A DNA stretch of 42,819 bases from Gemmatimonadota bacterium (GTDB lineage Bacteria; Gemmatimonadota; Gemmatimonadetes; Longimicrobiales; Gaopeijiaceae). Made by a program: the position numbers and the translations under genes. The notes under the pieces are model-generated. The model was not told where the DNA came from. It made no database searches and saw only the letters and a list, made by a program, of their open reading frames with translations. The DNA lies in assembly GCA_029262115.1 (NCBI GenBank), contig JAJCZZ010000029.1, positions 1 through 42,819 on the forward strand, written 5' to 3'. This document shows positions 6,530-14,920 of this stretch, one piece after another (positions within the stretch are counted from its first letter, which is position 1; each line of letters opens with the position of its first letter).

Positions 6530-6720
6530 TTGGTTGGGCGCTGCGGCGAGCGCGGAGGGTCGCGTCGCAGTGACGCGCGTCGCGGTGGGAGGCCTCGGCG
6601 GGCTCGGCCGGCTCCCGCGTGGCCGAATACGCCATGGACCGACCCCGTGGGACTATCGAGGTTGGTCCAACCCGGGGGGTGGGGTGGTGGTGGTGGTGAT
6701 CGCGCCAAAAAAATCCGTCC

Positions 6721-7161: not shown

Positions 7162-7259
7162 GAATCGAAAAAAAGGGTACGCGCTTCGACCTGCAGACAT
7201 CCAAACCGCATGGGCGCGGGACGGCCTTCTCCGACGCGGGGCGGTCACGGCCAGCGTCT

Positions 7260-7440
7260 AGTGTGGTGACTCGAAAGTGTCTCGGCCATTCGAGGGGACC
7301 ACGCTCGCGCGGTGCCCGCATCCGGCCCTAGGTCGTTGCACCATCCTCGAAGTAGCGCTGCTATTACTCGTCGTCGCGCCTACTAGGATCCGGCGCCTCG
7401 ATCCCTCTCGGTGGCTCGCGAACTTTCGAGTCACCACACT
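7260..7440. mobile_element. 181-bp MITE with 19-bp terminal inverted repeats
   Basis: The ends are perfect inverted repeats: AGTGTGGTGACTCGAAAGT at 7260-7278 and its reverse complement at 7422-7440. The interior has no gene. TCT lies immediately outside both ends (7257-7259, 7441-7443), giving a possible 3-bp target duplication. Alternatively the left TA suggests IS630-like TA targeting with one end mutated. The element abuts the TAG stop of the tlpA-like gene. With no transposase it would depend on a full element elsewhere. Confidence 0.8.
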
Positions 7441-7441
7441 T

Positions 7442-7996
7442 CTAGCTCCCAGCGTGCGCCGTACGGCCGAGAAGCTTCGCCACCTCTCCGACGAGATCCT
7501 GATCGCCACCCGACCCGGTATACACGACCGTCCCGCCAGCGTCCAGTATGACGACCACGGAAGTCGTCGGTGCCTTGTACGCCCGCACGGTCGCACCCTT
7601 CTTGTCCCAGAGGTACGGGTACCCCGGATTGTGCTCTCCCAGATGCCGTTTCACCCGGCGAACCGACTGAGAGACGGCAACGGCGACCGCAACCACATTG
7701 ACCTCGTCGCCGTGCTCCTCCTGAATCCGATCGAGCTGTGGCTGAAGCGCCTCGCAGTTCTCACACCACGTGGCCCAGAACTCGACGAGCGTCGGCTTCC
7801 CCGCCTCCACGTAGTCGAGGAACTGAACCTCGTTGCCGTCGAGGTCCTCAAGCATCGCCGCGGGCGCCTTCGTACCCAGCGGCAGCCCCACTCCTTGCGC
7901 GACAACCGGAGTCGCACCGGCGACGGTCCCCAGCAGTGCGAGACCGGCAATCGATGCCGCCGGCAGCAGTCTGCGTAACAGATTCGTGGAACTCAT
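7442..7996 (-). CDS. TlpA-like thioredoxin-fold protein, exported
   Basis: 184 residues with a signal peptide (cleavage near VVAQ, residue 34) and a redoxin/TlpA fold: entry strand ATWCENC with the redox pair Cys78-Cys81, and the cis-Pro region KAPTTSVVVILD. Such proteins reduce or exchange disulfides in the periplasm, for example during cytochrome c maturation. Its ATG overlaps the stop of the DsbD-like gene (ATGA), so DsbD is the likely electron donor. The stop codon TAG is formed right at the edge of the MITE, so the original C-terminus may have been altered, though the domain looks complete. Confidence 0.88.
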   Translation of the reverse strand: MSSTNLLRRLLPAASIAGLALLGTVAGATPVVAQGVGLPLGTKAPAAMLEDLDGNEVQFLDYVEAGKPTLVEFWATWCENCEALQPQLDRIQEEHGDEVNVVAVAVAVSQSVRRVKRHLGEHNPGYPYLWDKKGATVRAYKAPTTSVVVILDAGGTVVYTGSGGDQDLVGEVAKLLGRTAHAGS

Positions 7997-8815: not shown

Positions 8816-11440
8816 ATGCACGAATGTCTGGTACGATTCGCCCGCCCATTGGCGGTTTTCCCGACCCTGGCCATTCTGGCAGGCGCGTCCGTCCTCGAAG
8901 CCCAGGTGGCCGACCGGCCCGCCGACTGGAATCCGGACGAGGTCCTGGAGCGAGAGAGTTACACCCGACCGCCCAGCACGATCGCCGATGCGGTTCTGGC
9001 ACCCCGCCACCTGAACATGACGCTCAGGGAAATCAGCTCGGACCGGATGTGGTTCCTGAACGAGGTGGGAGACGGCCCGGTTACCATGGACCGGTTCTCC
9101 CTTCCGTTCCATGAACTCGGCGGGGCGTTCATCGACCACGCGGCGAATCGCGCGCGGACCCTCACCGTCCGTAGCAACGTCGGCATCCAACTCGTCTCGG
9201 CGGCCGACGGCACCGTTCGGGAGGTGCAGGTCCCCAGAGGGGCTCGCGTCTCGAACGCAACGTGGTCTCCGGAGGGCGAGCACGTCGCCTTCTTCGCGCA
9301 CACTCCCACGGCGACGCACCTCTACGTGGCCGACGCCACCGGGCAATCGCGCCGCCTGACCGACCGGGCGCTGCTGGCCACGATGTACACTGACTTCGAC
9401 TGGTCGGAGGACGGAAAGACGCTCGCCGCCGTCTTGATCCCTCGGAATCGCCCGGCAATGCCGCAACCGCCCGCACGGCCGATGGGCCCGCAGGTGAAGA
9501 TGACGGAAGAAGGCGAGAACATGCTGCGCGTGTACGCGAGCTTGATGGAGACCCCGTACGACAAGGATCTCCTGGAGTGGCACACCACCGGTCAGGTCGC
9601 CCTGATCGACGTCGAGAGTGGTCGGGTCACTGACGTGGGCAGCCCGACCATGGTCCGCGATCTCGACGTATCGCCCACTGGGGCGCACGTGCTGGTCACG
9701 CGGATGGTGCGACCCTTCAGCTACGTCGTACCGGTTCGTCAATTCGGGTCGGTGCAGGAGGTCTGGGACCGGAGCGGCACCGTCCTGGCCGTGGTCACCG
9801 ACGATCCGCTCGACACCGGAATCGAGGGTGGTCCCCGGGCCGGCGGAGCCGGCTTCTCCGGCTCGGGCGAAGTCGAAGGTCCCCGCTCCGTTTCATGGAT
9901 GGCGGACGGCACGCTCGTGTACATGGAGCAGGAGCCCGAGTCGGATGACGAGGCTGATCGCTCCACCGCTGACGACAGCGACGCGGCCCCGCGTCGGACG
10001 GACCGGGTCGTACGCTGGAGCGCGCCCTTCTCTGCATCGAGCAAGGACGTCCTCTTCGAAAACCCGCGCCGCTTGAACTGGGCGCGTTTCGAGGCCAGCG
10101 GCGACATCCTGTTCGCGTCGGAGCGGCAGAATGGGAAGGTGCACGAATTCGCCGTGATGCTCGACGACGGTGACGCCGAGAAGCACACGCTCGCCCGGTA
10201 CGACGGAGACGACGTGTACGAGAATCCCGGCTCGCTCGTGGGAGACGCCGGCCGATTCCCGGTGCGTCGGCGCTTCGGACCGCCCGCCGCGGACGGAAAC
10301 GTTCTCATGTCCGATGATGGCGATGCGGTCTTCTACGCCGGCATCGAGTACGGCGAGGATCCCATGGAGATGGCGCCTCAGGCGTTCGTCGACCGTGTGG
10401 AAATCGACGGCGGCGAGATACAGCGGATATGGACGTCGAATCGCGACGGCATCTCCGAGCGACCGCTGGCGTACGTTGACCTGGAAGACGGCGACGTGAT
10501 CGTGTCGCGCGAGGGCCGCCGGGAGATCCAGCAAACGTTCCGGAGCCGTGGCGGCGCGCTCACGCAACTCACTCGCAACGTGGATTACACGCCGGACCTC
10601 ACCGCCGCGCCGACGCGCGAGTTCACGGTCACGCGACCGGACGGCTTCAAGTTCCGTGTCAACGTGACGCTGCCGCCGAACTACGTGGAGGGTACACGGC
10701 TGCCGGCCATGTTCTGGTTCTATCCCCGCGAGTACACGGACCAGGACGACTACGACGAGACCGGCCAGACGTACGACAAGTTCGCGTTCCCGAACTTCGG
10801 CACCCGCTCGATGGAGTACCTGGTGCGGCTCGGCTACGCGGTCGTGGAGCCCGACGCCCCGATCGTCGGGAATCAGGGCCGGATGAACGACAACTACGAG
10901 CACGATCTCCGGAACAACCTCGCGGCGGTCATCGACCACCTCGATGAGGAGGGCATCATCGACCGTCGGCGCCTCGGCCTCGGCGGCCACTCGTATGGCG
11001 CGTTCTCCACGGTCAACGCGATGGTGCACACACCGTTCTTCAAAGCCGGAATCGCCGGCGACGGCAACTACAACCGGACGCTGACGCCTCTCCACTTCCA
11101 GAGCGAGCGCCGTACGCTGTGGGAGGCCAAGGACGTGTACATCTCGATGTCGCCGTTCCTGCAGGCCAACAACCTGACCGGCGCGCTCCTGATGTACCAC
11201 GGCCTGGACGATCAGAACGTCGGGACCGACCCGATCCACTCGCCCAAGCTCTTCCACGCGCTGAACGGCCTGAACAAGGAGGCCGCGATGTACCTCTACC
11301 CGTTCGAGGATCACGGCCCCGCGTCGGAGGAGACGATCCTCGATCTCTGGGCGCGGTGGACGGCGTGGCTGGACAAGCATCTCATGGAGGTGCCGGCAAA
11401 GCAGAACGTGATCTCGGAGGATCAGCCGGGAAGCTTCTAG
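8816..11440 (+). CDS. S9-family (prolyl oligopeptidase-like) exported serine peptidase
   Basis: 874 residues with a signal peptide (about 1-30). Residues ~80-580 form a beta-propeller built from YWTD/PD40-like blades. The C-terminal alpha/beta hydrolase domain carries a triad: Ser726 in GGHSYGAF, Asp798 or 799 in GLDDQNVG and His833 in FEDHGP. The sequence around the serine is close to glutamyl endopeptidase-type S9D enzymes. It probably trims peptides in the periplasm, with the propeller limiting access to short substrates. A strong ribosome site (GGAGGAG, 8805-8811) precedes the ATG. It is a single gene, divergent from dsbD, and followed by the repeat island. Confidence 0.9.
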   Translation: MHECLVRFARPLAVFPTLAILAGASVLEAQVADRPADWNPDEVLERESYTRPPSTIADAVLAPRHLNMTLREISSDRMWFLNEVGDGPVTMDRFSLPFHELGGAFIDHAANRARTLTVRSNVGIQLVSAADGTVREVQVPRGARVSNATWSPEGEHVAFFAHTPTATHLYVADATGQSRRLTDRALLATMYTDFDWSEDGKTLAAVLIPRNRPAMPQPPARPMGPQVKMTEEGENMLRVYASLMETPYDKDLLEWHTTGQVALIDVESGRVTDVGSPTMVRDLDVSPTGAHVLVTRMVRPFSYVVPVRQFGSVQEVWDRSGTVLAVVTDDPLDTGIEGGPRAGGAGFSGSGEVEGPRSVSWMADGTLVYMEQEPESDDEADRSTADDSDAAPRRTDRVVRWSAPFSASSKDVLFENPRRLNWARFEASGDILFASERQNGKVHEFAVMLDDGDAEKHTLARYDGDDVYENPGSLVGDAGRFPVRRRFGPPAADGNVLMSDDGDAVFYAGIEYGEDPMEMAPQAFVDRVEIDGGEIQRIWTSNRDGISERPLAYVDLEDGDVIVSREGRREIQQTFRSRGGALTQLTRNVDYTPDLTAAPTREFTVTRPDGFKFRVNVTLPPNYVEGTRLPAMFWFYPREYTDQDDYDETGQTYDKFAFPNFGTRSMEYLVRLGYAVVEPDAPIVGNQGRMNDNYEHDLRNNLAAVIDHLDEEGIIDRRRLGLGGHSYGAFSTVNAMVHTPFFKAGIAGDGNYNRTLTPLHFQSERRTLWEAKDVYISMSPFLQANNLTGALLMYHGLDDQNVGTDPIHSPKLFHALNGLNKEAAMYLYPFEDHGPASEETILDLWARWTAWLDKHLMEVPAKQNVISEDQPGSF

Positions 11441-11492
11441 CCGCCGATGACGGCGAGGCGGCCGGTCTCGGACGTGTCGCCGGTTTAGTGGC

Positions 11493-11655
11493 GGTTGGGT
11501 TCGGCGGCCGCACAGGGTCGGACCAGCTGGTGGTGGTTGGGTTCGTCGGCCGCACAGGTCGGAACGGCTGGTAGTGGTTGGGTTCGGCGGCCGCACAGGG
11601 TCGGACCTGGTGGTGGTGGTTGGGTTCGGCGGCCGCACAGGCTCCAGCGGCTGGA
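11493..11655. repeat. Tandem repeat, four copies of about 42 bp
   Basis: Copies begin GGTTGGGTTCG at 11493, 11535, 11576 and 11618, and each includes CGGCCGCACAGG, mostly with a NotI-like GCGGCCGC. Small indels vary the spacing (42, 41, 42). The copies are contiguous, with no unique spacers. Confidence 0.9.
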
Positions 11656-11659
11656 TGGC

Positions 11660-11689
11660 GGCCGGGTCTCCCGCGAGGGAGGCCCGGCC
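11660..11689 (+). terminator. Terminator-like hairpin downstream of the S9 peptidase
   Basis: A 13-bp stem (11660-11672 with 11677-11689, one G-U pair, loop GCGA) is followed by GTTTCCGTT. It is the first strong hairpin with a T-containing tail after the peptidase, although about 220 bases downstream of its stop. Confidence 0.5.
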
Positions 11690-11769
11690 GTTTCCGTTGG
11701 TTCTCGGGGACGGGCGGTGGTGGGTGCCGTCAGCGGGACACAGCCGGGGGGAACGGTGACGGCAGCGAG

Positions 11770-11984
11770 CGGTGACGGGGATGAGACGTGACGGCCGGGA
11801 GGCCATCCGCGACGGATGACGGGTGCCGAGGCGGACGGTGACGAGGATGATACGCGACGGCGGGGAGGCCAACCCGCGACGGATGACGAGTGCCGAGGCG
11901 GACGGTGACGAGGATGAGACGCGACGGCGGGGAGGCCAATCCGCGACGGATGACGAGTGCCGAGGCGGACGGTGGCGGGGATGA
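11770..11984. repeat. Tandem repeat, about three copies of 67 bp
   Basis: The anchor GACGGATGACG recurs at 11811, 11878 and 11945, exactly 67 bases apart, within units containing CGGTGACGAGGATGA and GGGGAGGCCAA. Each unit carries a small palindrome (ATCCG-CGA-CGGAT or close). The second and third copies are nearly identical; the first is partial and more diverged. Confidence 0.88.
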
Positions 11985-12063
11985 TCGCCTGAGGCCTGGC
12001 GGTGACTGTCCCCCGGGTCTTCGTGGAAGGCACTTCGAAAGCCACCCTCTCCCTCCAACAAGC

Positions 12064-12108
12064 AAAAGTGCACAGTCGATCCACCCGATTCGTCGAGTGT
12101 GCACTTTT
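12064..12108. repeat. Long hairpin with 11-bp AT-containing arms
   Basis: AAAAGTGCACA (12064-12074) pairs perfectly with TGTGCACTTTT (12098-12108) around a 23-base loop that itself contains TCGA...TCGA. It is immediately followed by the twin hairpins below. The local AT content stands out against the GC-rich surroundings. Confidence 0.8.
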
Positions 12109-12111
12109 CGC

Positions 12112-12233
12112 GAATTATTCGACACAACTCACCAATGGTCGATCGGGTCGGACTGCGACTGGTGAGTTGTGTGGAATTATTCGACACACCTCACCAATGG
12201 GTGATTTTCGGCCAACGGTTGGTGAGTTGTGTC
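12112..12233. repeat. Twin hairpins in 62-bp direct repeat
   Basis: Two units start GAATTATTCGACACA at 12112 and 12174 (62 bases apart). In unit one ACACAACTCACCA (12122-12134) pairs with TGGTGAGTTGTGT (12160-12172). In unit two a 15-base arm (12183-12197) pairs with 12219-12233 with one mismatch. The arms are conserved between units while the loops differ, so selection or copying acts on the stems. Confidence 0.85.
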
Positions 12234-12619
12234 GGTTCCGGTGGTCGAACGACCGCCGACGCGGACCGTGGCGGCCCCGCCGATCCGACGAGAGCGTCCC
12301 TGGTGGGACCGCCAGCGGCGAGACGAAAGGATGCTCGCCGTCGCTCGCCCTATCGAGGGTTGCGTGTGGGTGGGTCGGCCTTGTGGACCCACCCTCGACC
12401 GGTCAGGTGGGTGGGAACGAAGATGGCCCGCCGAAGCGCACCCAGGAATAGCTGCATCGGCCCCCGCCTCTCCGCCTCCCCACCCACCAGCCCGATCGCT
12501 CCGACAGCTCACCCTCGGTAGCGGACCCGTCCACCGCCCGACTACTCTCACACCGCTCCCAACACCCACGTCGCCGTCGGGCCCGCGCCCAACGGCGTAT
12601 CCTGAAACCGTTGGTGCCC

Positions 12620-14920
12620 ATGTCCGAAAGACCCGCTGGAAGCCCGGCAGGAGCCGGCCAGCCGACCTTCGCGCGCGACCTAGGCCTGTTCGACGCGACC
12701 ATGATCGGGGTAGGCGCGATGATCGGCGCGGGCATCTTCGTGCTGACCGGGATCGCGGCGGGTGAGTCCGGCCCGGCCTCCATTCTGGCCTTCGCGCTGA
12801 ACGGTGCGGTCACCCTTCTGACCGCCTTCGCCTATGCGGAGCTGGCGGCGGCCATCCCCGAGGCGGGGGGAGGATACGCGTTCGTCCGGAAGGCTTTCCC
12901 GGGCGCGATCGGCTTCACGGCCGGCTGGATGCTGTGGTTCGCGTACACGGTGGCCTGCAGCCTCTACGCGCTGGGCTTCGCGGGGTACTTCTGGGAGTTC
13001 TTCATCAAGTACATGCCGGGCTTCGCTGACGGTGCGTTCGGGGTCGTGGGAGAACACGGGGCGGGCTTGATCGTGACGTTCGTGATCGGCGCGTCGTTCG
13101 TGCGCATCAACATGCGCGGCACGGAAGTAACCGGGATGGCGGAGAACGTGCTCACGGTCGCCAAGCTGATCATCCTGAGCGTCTTCATCGCGTACGGTCT
13201 GAAGGCGGTGGGGGCGGTCCCGGTGGCTGAGACCGCGGCCGCGTTCAACCCCTTCTTCCCGCAGGGATTCGGTGGGGTGATTGTGGCGATGGGACTCACC
13301 TTCATCGCGTTCGAGGGCTACGACCTCATCGCGACGGTAGCCGAGGAGATCAAGGAGCCGGAGAAGAACATCCCCAAGGCGACGTTCATCTCCCTGGCCA
13401 TCACCATGGTCTTCTACCTGCTCATCCTCTTCGTGTCGCTGGCGGCCGTGCGTCCGCCGGACGGTGGACCCGCGTGGCAGTTCCTGGGCGACTACGGAGA
13501 GACGGCCGTGGTCCGCGCCGCCGAGGGCTTCATGCCGGCGTTCGGCGTCGCCGTGATCGTGTTCGGCGGACTCCTCTCCACGATGTCCGCCCTCAACGCC
13601 ACCGTTCTGGCGTCGTCACGGGTCGCGTTCTCGATGGCGCGCGACGGCCTCTTGCCCGGACCGGTCGCAACGATTCACCCGGAGCGCCGGACGCCCCACA
13701 TCGCCATCGCCGTGACCGGTGTCATTCTACTGGTGATGGCGCTTACCCTGCCCATCGAAGCGGTCGGTTCCGCGGCCAGCCTGATCTTCCTGCTGACGTT
13801 CGCGATGGTGAACCTTTCGCTGATCGTGTTGAGGCGGAAGATGCCGGACCTGCCGCGGCGGTACCGGGTGCCGCTGTACCCGTTCGTTCCGATTCTGGGT
13901 ATCGTGCTCAACGTCTTCCTGGCCGTCTATCAGTTCACGTTCCAGCCGCTCGCGTGGTACGTGACGGCCGGATGGGTCGCGATCGGCCTGGTGCTCTACT
14001 ATGGCTACTTCCGGGGCCAGGCGGTCCAGGATGGAAGGGCGGTGCTGGAGAAGCCGGTCCCCGCCGGACTGGCCAAGGACGACTCGGTGGTGGTCCCGCT
14101 CCACAATCCGGACCACGTCGGTACCCTGCTCGACTACGCGCGACCCATTGCCGAGGCACGGGGCCACTCCCTCGTGGCGTACACGGTCGTCGAGGTGCCG
14201 AGACAGCTCCCGGTCAATCAAGGCGAGCGCTTCATGGACCAGCGAGCCGGGCTTCTGGAGGCCGCCCGTGGCCACGCCGCAGCCGGGGGCTTCGCGCTCC
14301 AGACCGACACCGTCATTGCGCACCACGCCTCCGACGGCATCCTGGCCGGCGCGACGCGATACCGGGGCGATTGCCTGGTGATGGGATGGAAGGGATACAC
14401 GGACACGCGGGACCGCATCATGGGCGAGGTCGCCGACGACGTGATCCGCCACGCCCCGTGCGATCTCGCGCTCTTGAAAGTGGGCCGCCCCGGTCGGCCG
14501 CGTCGGTGCCTGTTCCCGACCGCCGGTGGGATGCATGCACGCCTCGCTGCGGAGATGCTGAATGTCCTGGCACCCGCATTCGGGATGGAGGTCACCACCT
14601 GCTACGTGGTGCCACCCGGCGCGTCCGAGGACGAACGCCGCCAGGCCGACCGATGGATGGGCAAGACGCTCGAGAGTCTCGAGGTCGACATGGACGTCGA
14701 GCGCCTCGTGATCGAGGCCAAGTCGGTGGCGGCCGGCATCGTCGAAGCGAGTCAGGACTACGATCTGGTCGTGTTGGGCGCCGCCCGCGAGCCGTATCTC
14801 CAGCAGGTCGTCTTCGGGGAGATTCCCGAAAAGGTGGCGCGGTCGTCACCGGCCTCGGTGCTCGTGGTGAAGCGGTACGAGGGACCGGTTCGCGGCTGGC
14901 TGAAGAGCATGTTCGGATAG
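12620..14920 (+). CDS. APC-family amino acid permease fused to two UspA domains
   Basis: About 766 residues. Residues ~15-460 form a 12-helix APC (amino acid-polyamine-organocation) transporter, with the helix 1 motif GVGAMIGAGIFVLTG and helix 6 FIAFEGYDLIATVAEE. Two cytoplasmic universal-stress-protein domains follow (about 485-625 and 630-760); the second keeps a nucleotide-binding-like end (DLVVLGAARE, then SSPASVLVVKR). APC-Usp fusions are known in bacteria, and the Usp part may sense nucleotides and gate transport. The frame is also open nine bases upstream, from a non-ATG codon. The transported substrate is unknown. Confidence 0.9.
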   Translation: MSERPAGSPAGAGQPTFARDLGLFDATMIGVGAMIGAGIFVLTGIAAGESGPASILAFALNGAVTLLTAFAYAELAAAIPEAGGGYAFVRKAFPGAIGFTAGWMLWFAYTVACSLYALGFAGYFWEFFIKYMPGFADGAFGVVGEHGAGLIVTFVIGASFVRINMRGTEVTGMAENVLTVAKLIILSVFIAYGLKAVGAVPVAETAAAFNPFFPQGFGGVIVAMGLTFIAFEGYDLIATVAEEIKEPEKNIPKATFISLAITMVFYLLILFVSLAAVRPPDGGPAWQFLGDYGETAVVRAAEGFMPAFGVAVIVFGGLLSTMSALNATVLASSRVAFSMARDGLLPGPVATIHPERRTPHIAIAVTGVILLVMALTLPIEAVGSAASLIFLLTFAMVNLSLIVLRRKMPDLPRRYRVPLYPFVPILGIVLNVFLAVYQFTFQPLAWYVTAGWVAIGLVLYYGYFRGQAVQDGRAVLEKPVPAGLAKDDSVVVPLHNPDHVGTLLDYARPIAEARGHSLVAYTVVEVPRQLPVNQGERFMDQRAGLLEAARGHAAAGGFALQTDTVIAHHASDGILAGATRYRGDCLVMGWKGYTDTRDRIMGEVADDVIRHAPCDLALLKVGRPGRPRRCLFPTAGGMHARLAAEMLNVLAPAFGMEVTTCYVVPPGASEDERRQADRWMGKTLESLEVDMDVERLVIEAKSVAAGIVEASQDYDLVVLGAAREPYLQQVVFGEIPEKVARSSPASVLVVKRYEGPVRGWLKSMFG

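Follow-up and report, generated by a model that had tools for sequence, protein, structure and literature searches.

A six-arm palindromic repeat dispersed over ten intergenic places of a Gemmatimonadota genome

The window, that is, the whole stretch of 42,819 nucleotides analysed here, is the entire 42.8-kb contig C29 of a genome of 5.45 Mb in 110 contigs (95.7% complete). Within it, a gap at positions 11441-12619 separates a gene for a peptidase of the prolyl oligopeptidase family S9 (8816-11440, + strand; Pfam PF00326, E 1.7e-23), with its stop at 11440, from a gene for an amino-acid permease with a Usp domain (12620-14920, + strand; Pfam PF13520 and PF00582), which starts at 12620. An earlier reading, made from the sequence alone, had described this gap as an island of three repeat types with no gene. 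The observation is real: the three repeats are present and no gene was found in the gap by codon usage with a crude home-made caller, although some long open reading frames overlap it mechanically. Tandem Repeats Finder returned both of the tandem arrays described, a 42-bp minisatellite of 3.7 copies at 11488-11641 (also called as 2 x 83 and then reaching 11654, 11488-11654 in all) and a 67-bp minisatellite of 3.2 copies at 11770-11984. The remainder of the gap, 12239-12619, is free of the 42-mer, 67-mer and hairpin repeats.

The three long hairpins lie in series at 12056-12238, as confirmed by inverted repeats and folding. Hairpin 1 (12062-12111; DNA fold, inverted repeat 12064-12079/12093-12108, 94%) has arms of type A (AAAAGTGCACACTCG-like), its stem being preceded by an A-run and followed by a T-run. 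Hairpin 2 (12113-12181; DNA fold, inverted repeat 12111-12134/12160-12183, 92%), which is the element core, and hairpin 3 (12182-12234; DNA fold, repeats D4/D5) have arms of type B (ACAACTCACCA). Hairpins 2 and 3 share their arms, as had been noticed for all three, but the arm of hairpin 1, although related, is different. The inverted repeat 12120-12135/12219-12234 is a 100% match, near-palindromic GAATTATTC linkers sit at the base of hairpin 2, and the right arm of hairpin 2, the linker and the left arm of hairpin 3 together form a 35-bp near-palindrome (12161-12195, 30/35 self-complementary). Compared with 200 dinucleotide shuffles, the hairpin block folds with a z of -6.5 as RNA and -8.2 as DNA (0/200 shuffles as good), and eight pairs of inverted 16-mers (15/16 matches or more, no further than 100 nt apart) were observed vs none in 30 shuffles. 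The hairpins are beyond chance. With 50.8% GC, they are not AT-rich, as had been stated, but they are less GC-rich than their flanks (70.8%).

A blastn search of the hairpin block against its own genome gave 18 matches at ten places on ten contigs, and a covariance model of hairpin 2 found the same ten places and no others among the best 150 of 4702 candidates, with no fragments of the element elsewhere in the genome among these candidates. By blastn, the covariance model and the arm spacing, the block at 12056-12238 is thus one of ten copies of a dispersed six-arm palindromic element of 183 bp. The pattern TGAGTTGTGTN{0,12}ATTATTCG matched the window copy alone and was too narrow. In the comparisons listed, homology between copies stops near the element borders (for example, L012/L013 434-618, with a core of ~451-610), the exception being L004/L005, with ~50 bp of further homology on one side. 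The copies on contigs C9 and C90 (L054 from 10120 onward, L055 from 10140 onward) have ~50 bp in common past the border (435-667 in blast), which suggests that the element has a longer form or that the two were duplicated together. The GC content of the element is 51-57%, vs 65-74% in the flanking 300 bp. No two copies are near-identical, the best pair reaching 81-83%, which argues against recent movement. The element is dispersed, with sharp ends and unrelated flanks; we infer that it has moved in the past, and it is best read as old.

The same genome-wide search, which the sequence-only reading had proposed for all three repeats, found no second copy of the 42-mer array or of the 67-mer array in the genome. 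An absence of further copies, which that reading had named as counting against it, is thus what the two arrays show, while the hairpins do have copies elsewhere. Since the arrays are single-copy while the hairpin block has ten places, the 42-mer array, the 67-mer array and the hairpin block are separate things and do not form one unit, contrary to the idea of a single island. Minisatellites are common in this genome, with 29 merged arrays, mostly intergenic, in the 201 kb surveyed (the window and nine stretches of the same genome), and we read the two arrays as independent slippage minisatellites, ordinary local tandem repeats. Tandem arrays occur in 7/10 of the gaps that hold the element vs 11/28 of the other gaps of at least 300 bp, a difference that is not significant (Fisher p 0.14); arrays make up 20% of the bases in element gaps vs 4.5% in other gaps, a figure behind which there are few loci. 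The copy on contig C86 is flanked on both sides by large minisatellites (L059 7358-7592 and 8047-8333), one of them of period 67.

The frame of the element consists of six alternately inverted arms. Anchored on six 6-bp arm cores, the start-to-start spacings are 31-29-33-29-31 in six of the ten copies and are off by one or two bases in L003, L005, L007 and L008. This spacing is mirror-symmetric and nearly base-exact, so that the same frame is presented on both strands. Every arm resembles one motif, being of type B or type A or an intermediate, such as AAAAGTCACCACTCG, and the linkers are mostly centred on GAAYTATTC, nearly palindromic itself, with another centre in one linker each of L007, L008, L012 and L013. 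The mean pairwise identity over the 45 pairs (with the orientation picked per pair for cores and linkers, and direct for inner loops) is 99% and 96% for the two central arm cores, 66-84% for the other cores, 63-73% for the linkers and 33-41%, near random, for the inner loops, the lengths of which hardly vary between copies despite the divergence of their sequence. A covariation test of the central hairpin (12 rows), an analysis that had been proposed for the stems, gave no compensatory changes beyond shuffles, as is expected of a DNA motif. This conservation agrees with arms that are constrained in their DNA sequence and spacing, or that are corrected repeatedly.

The arms might equally be constrained by a host protein that binds them. 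The main rival to a mobile repeat, which we consider unlikely, is a host protein-binding array: at each of ten places on the chromosome, six alternately inverted half-sites, about three helical turns apart, would be bound by a nucleoid, partition or regulatory protein. The near base-exact mirror spacing, the near-invariant central arms next to near-random loops, the near-palindromic linker and the lack of covariation would all suit such an array, as would the preservation of the whole frame in 10/10 copies, with no fragments among the best 150 of 4702 candidates. However, spacings of 29, 31 and 33 are unevenly phased, the outer arms are variable (66-84%) and the copies have no common neighbour gene, while absence from a same-genus genome (89% complete) and from all the relatives searched is odd for a housekeeping site. 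The mobile-repeat and the host-binding readings are not exclusive, as REPs can acquire host roles.

Within this frame, the copies differ in how the arms pair. The best pairing in L001, L003, L007, L012 and L013 is of arm 1 with arm 2 and of arm 5 with arm 6, so that three hairpins stand side by side. In L004, L005 and L006, arm 1 pairs better with arm 6 and arm 2 with arm 5, which encloses hairpin 2 in a single nested hairpin; L002 and L008 lean towards the nested layout by small margins (23 vs 19 and 23 vs 21 of 32). As we see it, two successive internal inversions would convert one layout into the other. Loop 2 of L004 and L006 has 13/17 matches inverted vs 7/17 direct, and loop 1 of the same pair 11/15 direct; in 400 shuffled sets of all 135 loop comparisons, the maximum was 12 inverted matches. 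L004 vs L006 is the sole clear local loop flip. The loop of L001 vs L004 gives 14/17 inverted, and this pair also aligns better reversed overall, so it may be a whole-element reversal and not a local flip. According to the account in PMC8794818, template switching at hairpins inverts the loop and keeps the stem; the cases in that paper are mainly rRNA genes, where the loops measure 4-8 nt, unlike the ~17-nt loop of the dispersed DNA repeat seen here.

Template switching also underlies a second alternative, namely that the copies are what remains of an ancient multi-copy element that has lost function and movement, recognisable solely because template switching corrects the palindromes. The high divergence of the copies, among which there is no near-identical pair, speaks for it, and the loop flip and the count of only ten copies (among the best 150 of 4702 candidates) point the same way. 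The central arm cores are nevertheless 96-99% identical across unlinked loci, next to near-random loops, and template switching would act on the arms inside a single element and not carry them from locus to locus, which makes this account improbable.

All ten copies are intergenic, as judged with the home-made codon-usage caller. For the nine scorable copies, those with both neighbouring genes known, five lie in gaps between convergent genes, vs 3/28 of the other gaps of at least 300 bp (Fisher p 0.012), and none lies in a divergent gap, vs 10/28 (Fisher p 0.079). There is no transposase among the 19 genes adjoining the copies, which have ordinary metabolic, transport or protease annotations, or none, and no neighbour in common. 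A DNA-enzyme-like domain was seen in just one neighbour, at L057 10274-11122, which starts close downstream of the copy on contig C45 and carries a nuclease-like DUF559/MTES_1575 domain. The gene content of the genome includes several pairs combining PadR-like and MacB/FtsX-type permease genes.

The position after genes, with 0/9 scorable copies in divergent gaps, is also what a transcribed RNA element would show, whether a 3′-end stabiliser, a bidirectional terminator or a small RNA with three stem-loops; the RNA fold (z -6.5) and the A-run before and T-run after the stem of hairpin 1 agree with it. We find this reading distinctly unlikely, given that the terminator scan did not call the element, that Rfam gave nothing in the window at the gathering score or in L009, L002, L004, L012 and L008 up to E 1, and that the same frame holds two incompatible pairing topologies. 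The near-palindromic linkers would be unnecessary for an RNA, and covariation is lacking in the central hairpin. The structured RNA suggested from the sequence thus finds no backing in the arms or in Rfam.

We then considered the distribution of the element beyond this genome. A blastn search of the element matched 0/38 relatives, and the hairpin model, with stricter filters, matched 0/153 other genomes of the order and 0/394 other genomes sampled from the phylum, a set that overlaps that of the order. The exact arm pattern occurs nine times in its own genome and in 0/153 others of the order; its reversed form, the control, is absent from this genome and has a single match each in two others of the order. 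There were no matches among viral contigs in three pattern scans, nor any match to the element in phages and plasmids; these scans and that of GTDB contigs may omit records of the window's own genome. The lone GTDB-contig pattern match (L061, from a Chitinophaga MAG) was rejected: it is perfectly palindromic, lies at one end of its stretch and has no linkers, the best model match in that genome being E 0.95, and it is taken as chance or an assembly artefact. Hence, the element is species-restricted, being absent from all the relatives searched, a conclusion that is provisional since there is only one same-genus genome (89% complete). No S9 gene was found within 1.5 kb either side of the three closest permease orthologues (G006, G014 and G008; 75-78%, family members), in flank sequence inspected upstream for L065 and downstream for L064 and L066, so there is no empty-site comparison. 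In the literature searched, we found no title or abstract opening that describes the element, which is not proof of its being unpublished.

The same genome also contains other repeats. A second dispersed palindromic, MITE-like repeat lies at 7259-7443 of the window, with the terminal inverted repeats TAGTGTGGTG...CACCACACT. Further copies are found at L052 4454-4709 and 1-145 and at L059 1-189 and 4454-4622, with a short one at L058 19470-19530, so that, besides the window, three of the other nine stretches fetched contain it. Identity among its copies reaches 97% over 189 bp, and two copies lie at contig ends; the repeat was probably active recently. Inside two of the copies, at L052 4521-4709 and L059 1-189, a hairpin module around GGGTACCC...GTCCGCAGGAC...GGGTCGCGCC occurs twice in a row and looks like a nested smaller repeat. 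In addition, the intergenic stretches L054 9787-9864 and window 6630-6704 match over 79 bp (78%), perhaps as a further dispersed repeat.

Among known systems, REPINs are characterised by two highly conserved inverted ends at a fixed distance, with a spacer, that form a hairpin and are dispersed between genes, as set out in Bertels and Rainey 2011 (PMC3116915). Like them, the element has conserved inverted ends, a spacer, a hairpin and dispersed intergenic copies; unlike them, it has three hairpins per unit, 10 copies only and two pairing topologies, and it lacks the constant GTAG foot (GTAG or its complement occurs in 3/10 copies, at several positions). Its genome, 95.7% complete, has 0 matches to the Y1 transposase model Y1_Tnp (PF01797), which matches 5/14 control genomes, and a RAYT partner was therefore rejected. 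Failing on both the GTAG foot and the RAYT partner, the element is not filed as a REPIN. The description as REP-like made from the sequence holds for its behaviour, as ten palindromic copies dispersed between genes, but not for a REP in the strict sense, with a Y1 gene and a GTAG or CGTC foot. CGTC REPs, as PMC3733652 presents them, are palindromic dispersed repeats with 8-9 bp stems and CGTC at one end, without a dedicated transposase. The element is likewise palindromic, dispersed and without a dedicated transposase, but its unit is 183 bp long and CGTC is not constant at the stem end, where it or its complement is scattered, and absent in L007.

The element resembles bacterial MITEs in being short, non-coding, palindromic, dispersed and without a transposase of its own, and differs from them in the lack of a target duplication, in its weak outer terminal repeats and in that no parent insertion sequence was found, no copy lying next to a transposase among the 19 adjacent genes. 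The longest flank match is 0 in 5/10 copies, with a mean of 1.4 nt vs 2.1 for mismatched flanks; the outermost 12 bp have an inverted match of 3-9/12 and the outermost arms, 1 and 6, match at 8-13/16. A CRISPR array was rejected because the loops are homologous between loci (loop 1 of L005/L006 13/15). Integron attC sites have the core sites R′ GTTRRRY and R″ RYYYAAC, and this identity was also rejected, GTTRRRY occurring in 0/10 copies and RYYYAAC in 2/10. For stem-loop repeat families, the mobiliser is often unknown, and we know of no six-arm mirror-spaced frame in families of the ERIC, BIME or YPAL type. The element is like these in being a lineage-limited, intergenic stem-loop repeat. PMC2267715 reports 92 stem-loop repeat families from a set of 40 genomes and treats ERIC, BIME, YPAL and others as lineage-limited stem-loop repeats, many of them intergenic, Table 4 of that source giving only the structure type.

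On balance, we lean towards reading the hairpin block as a copy of a palindromic mobile repeat, species-restricted and non-autonomous, which behaves as a REPIN or MITE does; the 183-bp element is probably a small DNA repeat of a selfish or structural kind. In this reading, a trans-acting enzyme would once have copied the unit by recognition of its arms at the DNA level, probably in the form of single-stranded hairpins or of a cruciform, and the element would prefer, or survive in, DNA downstream of genes. The six arms all look like descendants of a single motif, so that template switching during replication, or recombination between arms, would then flip loops and swap arms, keeping the arms palindromic while the loops drift. 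The second palindromic repeat, present in the window and in three fetched stretches, means that this genome does carry miniature elements. What weighs against a mobile repeat is that no Y1 gene was found in the genome and no transposase among the 19 adjacent genes, that target duplications are lacking, that no two copies are nearly identical and that no empty site was found. We are doubtful of the bolder idea of a new kind of palindromic element, in which six interchangeable inverted arms would switch between three hairpins and a nested cruciform through internal inversions and be moved or rearranged by a non-RAYT enzyme.

Most of the palindromic repeats known from bacteria consist of one or two hairpins, and a Y1 transposase often accompanies them. 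The geometry of this element is unusual, and it is a modest addition to them unless a mobilising enzyme or a binding protein is found. With its nearly exact spacing, its near-random loops and its two ways of pairing, a six-arm unit from a genome in which no Y1 was detected would be a clean case for asking whether the arms are kept constant by an enzyme, by the binding of a protein or by template switching, and its ten copies are a natural test set for this arm constancy.
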